A DNA stretch of 64,000 nt from positions 186,001 through 250,000 of the forward strand of contig NW_002476370.1 of the NCBI RefSeq assembly GCF_000189635.1, read 5' to 3'. The translations under genes and the position numbers were made by a program. Numbering within the stretch: position 1 is the first letter of the stretch; the number at the start of each line of letters is the position of its first letter. The notes under the pieces were generated by a model, which saw only the letters and a list, made by a program, of their open reading frames with translations, ran no database searches and was not told the origin of the DNA. Positions 30,150-59,593 of this stretch are shown here, one piece after another. This stretch comes from Tetrahymena thermophila SB210. Its lineage: Eukaryota; Ciliophora; Oligohymenophorea; Hymenostomatida; Tetrahymenidae.

Positions 30150-30222
30150 TCCCCTATAGTCTAGCAGGTTAGGATAGAAGGTTTTCACCCTTCAGACCCG
30201 GGTTCAAGTCCCGGTGGGGGAA
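30150..30222 (+). tRNA. tRNA-Glu (anticodon UUC), copy 1
   Basis: A 73-base sequence including discriminator A folds as a cloverleaf: acceptor TCCCCTA/TGGGGGA, D-arm around AGCAGGTTAGG, anticodon stem GAAGG/CCTTC with loop TTTTCAC (anticodon TTC), and T-arm CCGGG-TTCAAGT-CCCGG. There is no intron, and CCA is not encoded, as expected for a nuclear gene. A run of T follows within a few bases as a Pol III terminator. UUC reads GAA and GAG. It is identical to the copies at 30767 and 33488. Confidence 0.97.
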
Positions 30223-30766: not shown

Positions 30767-30839
30767 TCCCCTATAGTCTAGCAGGTTAGGATAGAAGGTT
30801 TTCACCCTTCAGACCCGGGTTCAAGTCCCGGTGGGGGAA
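30767..30839 (+). tRNA. tRNA-Glu (anticodon UUC), copy 2
   Basis: Identical over all 73 bases to copy 1, on the same strand, 617 bp downstream (start to start). Followed by TTCTTTTTTT. Confidence 0.97.
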
Positions 30840-33487: not shown

Positions 33488-33560
33488 TCCCCTATAGTCT
33501 AGCAGGTTAGGATAGAAGGTTTTCACCCTTCAGACCCGGGTTCAAGTCCCGGTGGGGGAA
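33488..33560 (+). tRNA. tRNA-Glu (anticodon UUC), copy 3
   Basis: The 73 bases are identical to copies 1 and 2 and on the same strand, but separated from them by the Rab gene. A T-run follows (ATTTTTTCCC). Confidence 0.97.
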
Positions 33561-49373: not shown

Positions 49374-50386
49374 TTTTTTGTTTTGTAATATAATATGTTA
49401 AATTATAATTGTCTCTTGCTAAATTTCAAAAGTATTTTATAATCAATTTGTTTTAAAACACAAATATCTTAATTAATTTCACAAAAATAACTATTTCTGA
49501 TCAAGTAAACAAATACTAATAATTTAACATTTCGTACATTATTAAATAAAATGTTTAGATTTTTTATTCATTTTAATTTAGTATATTTAATCCTTATAAA
49601 TAAATTGAATAGATTGATGGTTTTCTTCCTTAAAAAAATAAATAAAAATATATAGATATTTAATTTTTTTTAATTTTACTTTTATAATAAATATTTCTCT
49701 ATTGAAAATTCATCAATAACACTAATTAAATTAAATATTGATTTATAAAACTATCATTTTAATAAGAAAATAATCAGACAAGATAAAATTTGATACTAAA
49801 TTTGAGATAAATGCTTATAAAATACCAAATAGTTAAAAATCTGAAATAAAATCTTCAAAAATTAATTAAATGTTCTTATCAAAAGTAGGTAGGATTTCAA
49901 TCAATTATTTATAAAAAAGGAAATTCTAAAATTTATTTGTATGTTATTGATTTGTTTATTTTTTCTCAAAATATAACAAGATAAAATTAAAATTAATACT
50001 CTAACTCATACTAAATTTAATACTAATTAGATATAAAAGCTTATAAATATACTATAATAATTAGTACAAACATAATTTATTTTGAAATTTAAAATAGAAA
50101 TTCATTTTTTATTTATTTATTTAATGATTTAGTTAAAAATATATTTATTTATTTATTTATTGCTTAATTAAAGTAATATGGATTAAATTTTTCTTTTTTG
50201 TATTTATTTATTGTTTGTGTGTTAGTTTTCTTTATAAATTGAAATTATTTTTATGATATAATATTTATTTATTCACTCAAAACTCGAGGCAGATTTCGTA
50301 GTGCAAATGATTTTATAAAATCTAATTACTGCTTTAGATTTTCTCAATGAAGGTTTGTGGCAATTAATTTATTGAACTATTCAAAT
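49374..50386. other. Intergenic spacer with TTTA repeats and 3' UTR of zinc-knuckle gene
   Basis: TTTA/ATTT simple repeats lie at about 50105-50165. Positions 50282-50386 are less A+T-rich and directly follow the TGA of the zinc-knuckle gene; they are probably its 3' UTR. Confidence 0.5.
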
Positions 50387-58224: not shown

Positions 58225-58862
58225 ATCTAAAAAAGGAGTGCCTAATTTTGTTAAAAATTTTATTCTCTATTTAAATTAATAAACAAACAACTTTAATTAT
58301 TTATTATTTAAATAGCAGTGTTAATTAAAATCTAATTATTTTTTTAATATAAAAATTAATTATCTCATATCAACATTTTTTACATTATTTTTTGAAATTA
58401 TTTTTCCAAACAAAGCATGAAAATAGAAATTCAACTTTTTTTGTTCGAAAAGTAAAATTAATTACACAAAAATTAATGATTTAAGTATTTATTTAGTATT
58501 GATCCAATCACTAAAAGCACAATCAAATAGATTTAAAAATTTATTGAATTATGTTTTTGATATTTTTAAATATTTAATTTAATGTATTATAAAATAAAAT
58601 TAACATTTCAAAAAATAATTTTGTTTAAAAAATTATTAAGCAAGAAAAAAAATAAATAATTAAGTTGTATAAAATCAGCATTATAATATTATTAAATTAA
58701 TTACTATTTCCATTTATCATTAAGAGACTTTTAATACATAAATAAAAATTCAAATTGTAAAAAAAAAAATATTTTAATAGAAATTAGTTAATTTAATTTT
58801 AATTTCAAATATTAATTTATAAAATTTATAGAAATTTAGTAATTATATTCAAATTTGATAAT
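58225..58862. other. A+T-rich spacer upstream of the 704-aa gene
   Basis: Promoter region of the gene starting at 58224 and 3' flank of the glutathione peroxidase gene. Nothing is recognised before the SECIS-like element. Confidence 0.6.
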
Positions 58863-58937
58863 AGAGCTCATTAGCTTCAAACCTTATAACTTCTATTAAA
58901 GATTTAATTATAAAGCTATCATTGAATGATATCTCTT
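58863..58937 (-). promoter_or_regulatory. Candidate SECIS element in the 3' UTR of the glutathione peroxidase
   Basis: Read on the minus strand, the order expected of a eukaryotic SECIS is present: ATGAT (58922-58918), 12 nt (AGCTTTATAATT), an AA pair, 24 nt, then TGAA (58879-58876). AGCTTTATAA pairs with TTATAAGGTT over ten base pairs including wobbles, placing the two TGA quartets opposite each other at the base and the AA in the apical loop. A weaker lower stem (CATT/AATG, then AGAG/CTCT) lies below the quartet. It begins about 50 nt after the stop codon. SECIS elements recruit SBP2 and the selenocysteine elongation factor so that an in-frame UGA is read as Sec. Fold judged by eye. Confidence 0.65.
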
Positions 58938-58985
58938 TTATCTATATTCAAATATTTTTTTTACTAAATTTCATACAAATTTTCA

Positions 58986-59593
58986 TCAGTTAGCTAAAAG
59001 CTTTTGGATAACTCCATCCAAATCTTATGATTTCACTGTAGGTTTGTAAAATCCACAAACTTTGCCTTCTCTATCTACAACAAATTTAGAGAAATTCCAT
59101 GGAATCTGCTTAGCCTTGTTAGTTTAGGGATCGTAGAGCTCTGAGTTAGTTCTCAAAAATTTGTAAATAGGATGAGGATTATCGCCATTGACTTCAATCT
59201 TTTAAAATAATGGGAATGATGCACCAAACTTTTCAGTTATAAAATCTTTAATCTTTGGCTCAGCCCAAGGTTCTTGGGACATAAACTAATTGCAGGGGAA
59301 GCCTAAAATCTCTAGGCCGCTGTCTCTATTTAAAAAAAAATTATTTTTTGAGTTAATTCCATTTGTTTTAAATTTTGTTACTTATATTTCTTATATAGAT
59401 CGACAAGCCCTCTGTATTAGTCTCCTGTCAAACCTCATTTACATGCAACATTTACAATAATTATAGCCTTTTTATTGCTATATTAGCTCATTTTAACAAG
59501 ATTTCCATCTATGTCAACAGCTTCTAAATCGAAGAAAGTATTTTCTAACTTTTTTACGTTTTCAAATTTACTCTTAAAAAAGCAAGCACCCAT
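58986..59593 (-). CDS. Selenocysteine glutathione peroxidase, 183 aa
   Basis: Exons 59382-59593 and 58986-59325 with a 56-nt intron give 184 codons. Glutathione peroxidases reduce H2O2 or lipid hydroperoxides with thiols. Codon 53 is TGA (59437-59435) exactly at the catalytic position: NVACK-TGA-GLTGDQYRGL, matching the NVASxUGxT site of Sec-containing enzymes. Other family signatures follow: GFPCNQF, the catalytic Trp/Asn of IPWNFSKF, and KYKDSGLEILGFP. A candidate SECIS sits in the 3' UTR. The frame on both sides of the TGA is intact and conserved, which argues against decay. Two consecutive TGAs (58988-58986, 58985-58983) end the gene. The N-terminus MGACFFKSKF has no clear targeting signal, though MGAC could be acylated. 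Confidence 0.88.
59435..59437 (-). other. Selenocysteine TGA codon of the glutathione peroxidase
   Basis: An in-frame TGA occupies the catalytic position between ACK and GLT. In this genetic code TGA is otherwise the only stop codon. Confidence 0.85.

Follow-up and report, generated by a model that had tools for sequence, protein, structure and literature searches.

In-frame UGA and a SECIS element in the glutathione peroxidase gene TTHERM_00279820 (TtGPx12) of Tetrahymena thermophila, a ciliate with UGA as its sole stop codon

With a probability of about 0.95, the gene at 59593-58986 on the minus strand of the stretch analysed here is TTHERM_00279820 (TtGPx12), encoding a selenocysteine (Sec) glutathione peroxidase (GPx) in which a SECIS element drives Sec insertion at the UGA of residue 53 and the terminal UGA serves as stop. 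The stretch, here called the window, comprises 64,000 nucleotides of Tetrahymena thermophila SB210 (contig NW_002476370.1, C167:186001-250000), and the genome searched comprised 101,022,631 bases in 445 contigs. The reading follows from an exact match to a published SECIS, from the spliced frame and its family match, from the SECIS tests and the control with Cys-containing GPx genes, from the presence of tRNA-Sec, O-phosphoseryl-tRNA Sec synthase (SecS) and SPS2, and from ESTs. An earlier note on this DNA had proposed a Sec-GPx in a code where UAR is glutamine and UGA the only stop. The observation is real and that main reading, supported by the sequence, is correct; gene and SECIS were already published in 2008 (PMC2612030, Table 2).

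Exon 1 of the gene (59382..59593, minus strand, from the ATG) was defined by translation with table 6 and by Pfam GSHPx, and exon 2 (58986..59325, minus), which includes the primary stop TGA at 58988-58986, by translation. The intron between them (59326..59381, minus; 56 nt, GT...AG, GTAAC...AAATAG) follows YKKYK and was deduced from the sequence; its removal restores the frame (...YKKYKDSGLEILGFPCNQF...) and gives a GPx of 183 residues which ends in TGA TGA, since a second in-frame TGA (58983..58985, minus) stands directly after the primary stop as a tandem stop. The Sec-GPx reading of 58863..59593 in the earlier note stands, but intron and tandem stop had been left unmarked there, and the unspliced frame drifts past YKKYK because of the intron.

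The in-frame TGA described at a conserved GPx residue was found at 59437-59435 on the minus strand, at residue 53 in the context NVACK-U-GLT, and is read here as Sec. When C was typed for U, the spliced protein matched Pfam GSHPx (PF00255) over residues 20-129 (1.2e-40; 137.9 bits, curated cut-off 27), and its best solved relative was PDB 2v1m (1.5e-42), presumably the Schistosoma mansoni glutathione peroxidase. Residue 53 pairs in the alignment with the second Cys of NVACKCG, which we take to be the catalytic site; the crystallised chain of 2v1m has Cys there, as do the Cys paralogs of T. thermophila, whereas the window gene has TGA. The other members of the tetrad are presumably Q84 (CNQF), W147 and N148 (IPWNF), and together with U53 they occupy columns that are invariant across four aligned T. 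thermophila GPx (C typed for U). A GPx catalytic tetrad of C/U, Q, W and N is described in PMC7409322.

Downstream of the stop, a SECIS was located at 58857..58942 on the minus strand by identity to a published sequence, by its fold and by models. All 86 of its 86 bases (58942-58857) agree, without any difference, with the SECIS printed for TTHERM_00279820 in Table 2 of PMC2612030, and the window contains this sequence a single time. The AUGA of the SECIS follows the primary stop after 63 nt, the core AUGA...UGAA lies at 58922-58876, and the predicted fold consists of helix I, an AUGA/UGAA internal loop, a helix II of 12 pairs and an apical AAA. The stability of the fold corresponded to a z of -2.69, with equally stable folds in 2 of 200 shuffles. 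The SECIS-like 3' UTR fold that had been proposed is thereby borne out, by identity, by predicted fold and by first rank under a trained model run with its filters off.

A SECIS descriptor, composed after the element had been seen, ranked the window element first over the two strands of the window (16.1; runner-up 14.6 at 50307), and when the UTR was shuffled 5000 times by dinucleotides its score was never reached. Over loci totalling 142,872 bases, some of which overlap, the descriptor gave nine matches of at least 13, all of them in four selenoprotein UTRs, which the overlaps repeat. At a threshold of at least 9 the SECIS of six of the eight selenoprotein genes were detected; the weak cases were TrxR 00486500 (5.5), SPS2 (no match) and SelT (11.6). 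The other SECIS-like matches in the window, at 50307 (+), 54505 (-) and 46636 (-), were discarded, as no selenoprotein frame was recognised by eye upstream of them.

The covariance model R1 was trained on the SECIS of three TrxR genes and SelW, the window element being excluded, and its training alignment holds the 3' side of SelW one base off register. With filters off, R1 scored the window element above everything else across the 64 kb (24.4 bits, E 0.027; runner-up 21.6 bits, E 0.11); with default filters it missed the element, and the published GPx10 SECIS received 14.3 bits (E 9.2), under many chance matches. A model of six genes (the three TrxR, SelW, SelT and SPS2), again excluding the window element, gave the latter 27.4 bits (E 0.013), and the next match 18.9 bits (E 0.68). 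Changes on both sides were found at 10 of the 10 modelled pairs of helix II in these six training SECIS, and 81.7% of their helix II cells pair (mean after shuffling 50.9%), in an alignment fitted to the structure and so biased in that direction. When 301 nt were searched with Rfam SECIS_1, the window element reached 24.5 bits (E 0.011) and fell short of the gathering score of 35; across the whole window no Rfam SECIS family rose above gathering. In the genome-wide search with Rfam SECIS_1 (E up to 10) the sole match was the SelW UTR and the window element was not recovered; scoring covered 132 of the 1998 first-look candidates, and the absence of the element from that result therefore means little. 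The window also holds three tRNA-Glu(TTC) genes (30150-30222, 30767-30839 and 33488-33560, +), with identical letters in the Rfam alignments.

None of eight Cys-GPx loci had a descriptor match of at least 9 within 600 nt past the stop, a control limited by the close paralogy of four of the eight, by the GPx-like loci C215 and C188 lying outside the set and by the 6/8 sensitivity of the descriptor. A second Sec-GPx was present in the genome. The SECIS printed for GPx 00141160 was found exactly at its locus (L021:2887-3773, genome C65), where the DNA encodes NVACK-U-GLTSDHYTQLVEMYKKYK, then SNQF and IPWNF, with an intron at the position matching that of the window gene. From the UGAA/UGAA SECIS core, the two introns and the gene number we infer that this locus is the TtGPx10 of PMC7409322. 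Were the UGA at residue 53 a true stop, the window gene would be a decaying pseudogene or a gene for a short peptide, a reading favoured by the lack of any stop codon but UGA in this code and by the low scores of the element under generic SECIS models (Rfam SECIS_1, and the search reported in PMC7409322). Past this UGA, nevertheless, the reading frame stays open as far as a normal C-terminus and keeps the tetrad residues Q, W and N, the SECIS stands out within the window, the second GPx has UGA at the equal site together with a published SECIS, and 5 ESTs are given for TTHERM_00279820 in Table 2 of PMC2612030; a true stop is thus extremely improbable.

The genome also encodes components for Sec insertion. 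A tRNA-Sec was detected (68.6 bits) with UUCAA in its anticodon loop; ARAGORN with the bacterial code reported no tRNA in locus L010. The SecS profile matched at 1.7e-126. The SPS2 gene has its own in-frame UGA and SECIS, although its selD profile matches were under the curated cut-off; the SPS2 SECIS string of PMC2612030 matched from its 5' end, with a later A run two A shorter. The bacterial selB profile yielded 27 matches, none over its cut-off, and for eEFSec and SBP2, PMC7409322 names TTHERM_00408870 and TTHERM_00395870. By analogy with the established eukaryotic Sec pathway, the SECIS in the 3' UTR would attract an SBP2-like protein, together with eEFSec and its Sec-tRNA(UCA), the UGA at residue 53 would then be decoded as Sec, and a release factor would read the terminal UGA, with the second UGA as a back-up. 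Ribosomal Sec insertion and enzyme activity of this GPx would be expected on the same grounds. Se-dependent GPx activity is described in PMC7600574 for cell extracts, in which single isoforms were indistinguishable.

Reading of the UGA as Cys or Trp, independent of selenium, would agree with the Cys of the paralogs at this site and with the reassignment of UGA in some other ciliates (PMC4967479). The genes examined here, however, end in UGA as a stop. Moreover, in the eight genes examined, a scope that leaves out in-frame TGAs inside other profile matches, the in-frame UGA stands at the GPx site, in CxxU, at the TrxR C-terminus or at the SPS2 site, which we take to be known Sec sites, and is followed by a SECIS or SECIS-like 3' UTR. 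Such read-through is accordingly very improbable, and the SECIS-driven Sec reading is retained.

These results bear on a conflict in print, between the SECIS of 2008 and two papers of 2020 without a detectable one. According to PMC7409322, Sec without a SECIS is found in TtGPx12 and the reverse, a SECIS without Sec, in TtGPx10; PMC7600574 likewise gives TtGPx12 without a detectable SECIS. SECISearch3 was used in one of these two papers that miss the TtGPx12 SECIS, and one of them calls the Sec insertion in TtGPx12 unexplained. TtGPx12 as presented in PMC7409322 shares its one intron (Table 1), Sec and the CXU/Q/W/N tetrad with the window gene, but its SECIS is marked absent, whereas the window gene has the published SECIS with AUGA 63 nt past the stop. 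For TtGPx10, the same paper has the tetrad missing in one place and Cys at the Sec site in another. Both points of 2020, TtGPx12 without SECIS and TtGPx10 without Sec, are contradicted by the sequence. Given the SECIS of TtGPx12 and the Sec codon at the second GPx locus, the anomaly therefore looks like an artefact of gene models and search sensitivity.

Two further genes emerged as selenoprotein candidates on the evidence of their sequences, in addition to the six of PMC2612030. The SelW-like gene (YCGG-U-GYKPQY) lies at C334:225426-225632 (L022:3427-3818, about 225426-225817, when its SECIS is included) and matched TIGR02174 at 2.7e-14 with C typed for U. Its SECIS, 88 nt past the stop, is the sole genome-wide match noted above (23.8 bits, E 1.37), which is below gathering and not significant alone. 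The SelT-like gene (YCIG-U-SYKGNF) lies at C4:362832-363245 (L032 1501-1914) and matched the same profile at 2.1e-20, again with C typed for U. Its SECIS-like 3' UTR (L032 1997-2062) was matched by R1 (E 0.032); the minimum-energy fold contained the SECIS helix in only two of the shorter stretches tried and not in the 80-nt stretch, and is not clearly that of a SECIS. Among the matches listed in a search of the open-access literature, no description of a Tetrahymena SelW or SelT was recognised. Profiles for SelK and Sep15/SelM had no match in the genome, which does not establish their absence, because these profiles matched nothing in the control genomes either. The MsrA profile gave four matches at three loci, with no TGA inside.

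The three published Sec-TrxR genes, at loci L024, L026 (minus strand) and L028, contain all three TrxR SECIS strings of PMC2612030 exactly, and in each of them a single codon separates the UGA for Sec from the UGA for stop. The genes end in TGC TGA GCT TGA TTT, TGC TGA GCT TGA GCT GCA TGA and TGC TGA GGT TGA TCG, and in TTHERM_00823430 (L026) the codon GCT (GCU) follows each of these two UGAs. Two more TrxR-like loci (L023 and L025) have Cys in place of Sec, their C-terminus being WLCCG, and had no descriptor match of at least 13. In sections 18 and 19 of PMC2612030 the account of TTHERM_00279820 mentions neither the tandem stop nor the discrimination between Sec and stop UGA.

The Sec UGA of TrxR 00486500 lies 66 nt 5' of its SECIS AUGA. 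The stop lies 85 nt from the AUGA in SelT, 88 in SelW, 93 in TrxR 00823430, 117 in GPx10 and 193 in TrxR 00047660, and the remaining three stops of the eight genes lie 60, 62 and 63 nt from their SECIS. A single cut-off in SECIS distance was rejected as the discriminator, as it fails over the eight genes because one Sec UGA lies at 66 nt while five stops lie at 85 to 193 nt. A cut-off particular to each SECIS may operate instead, and would need a resolution of 6 nt in the TrxR genes; SECIS-dependent position limits are described for mammalian and Euplotes TrxR (PMC3737529). In other ciliates UGA can mean Trp, stop and Sec, and a minimal-distance model has been questioned there (PMC4967479). 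G directly followed the Sec UGA in 7/8 genes and the stop UGA in 1/8 (Fisher p 0.010), a contrast confounded because Gly follows Sec in five of the eight; in TrxR 00823430 there is G at both. Another in-frame UGA within five codons past the stop was present in 4/8 selenoprotein genes and 0/8 Cys-GPx genes. Tandem stops are reported for 11.5% of T. thermophila genes (3,046/26,498), apparently counted within 6 codons (PMC6879139), and against this rate the excess in selenoprotein genes has a binomial probability of 0.008, on small numbers, post hoc and with Cys-GPx genes that are related to each other.

It is a tentative and, as a whole, rather unlikely proposition that T. thermophila has at least eight selenoproteins including SelW and SelT, that the choice between Sec and stop at a UGA depends on neither a common SECIS-distance cut-off nor the next codon, and that the terminal UGA of TTHERM_00823430 is partly read as Sec. 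Such a second Sec may extend the C-terminus to SC-U-A-U-A-A before the next UGA. The TrxR genes offer a natural minimal pair with which to test how ribosomes separate Sec from termination at UGA. The window gene shows neatly a single codon carrying two meanings within one mRNA, where the cell has no alternative stop codon. The interest that remains lies in the corrected record, in the two extra candidates and in the TrxR minimal pair.
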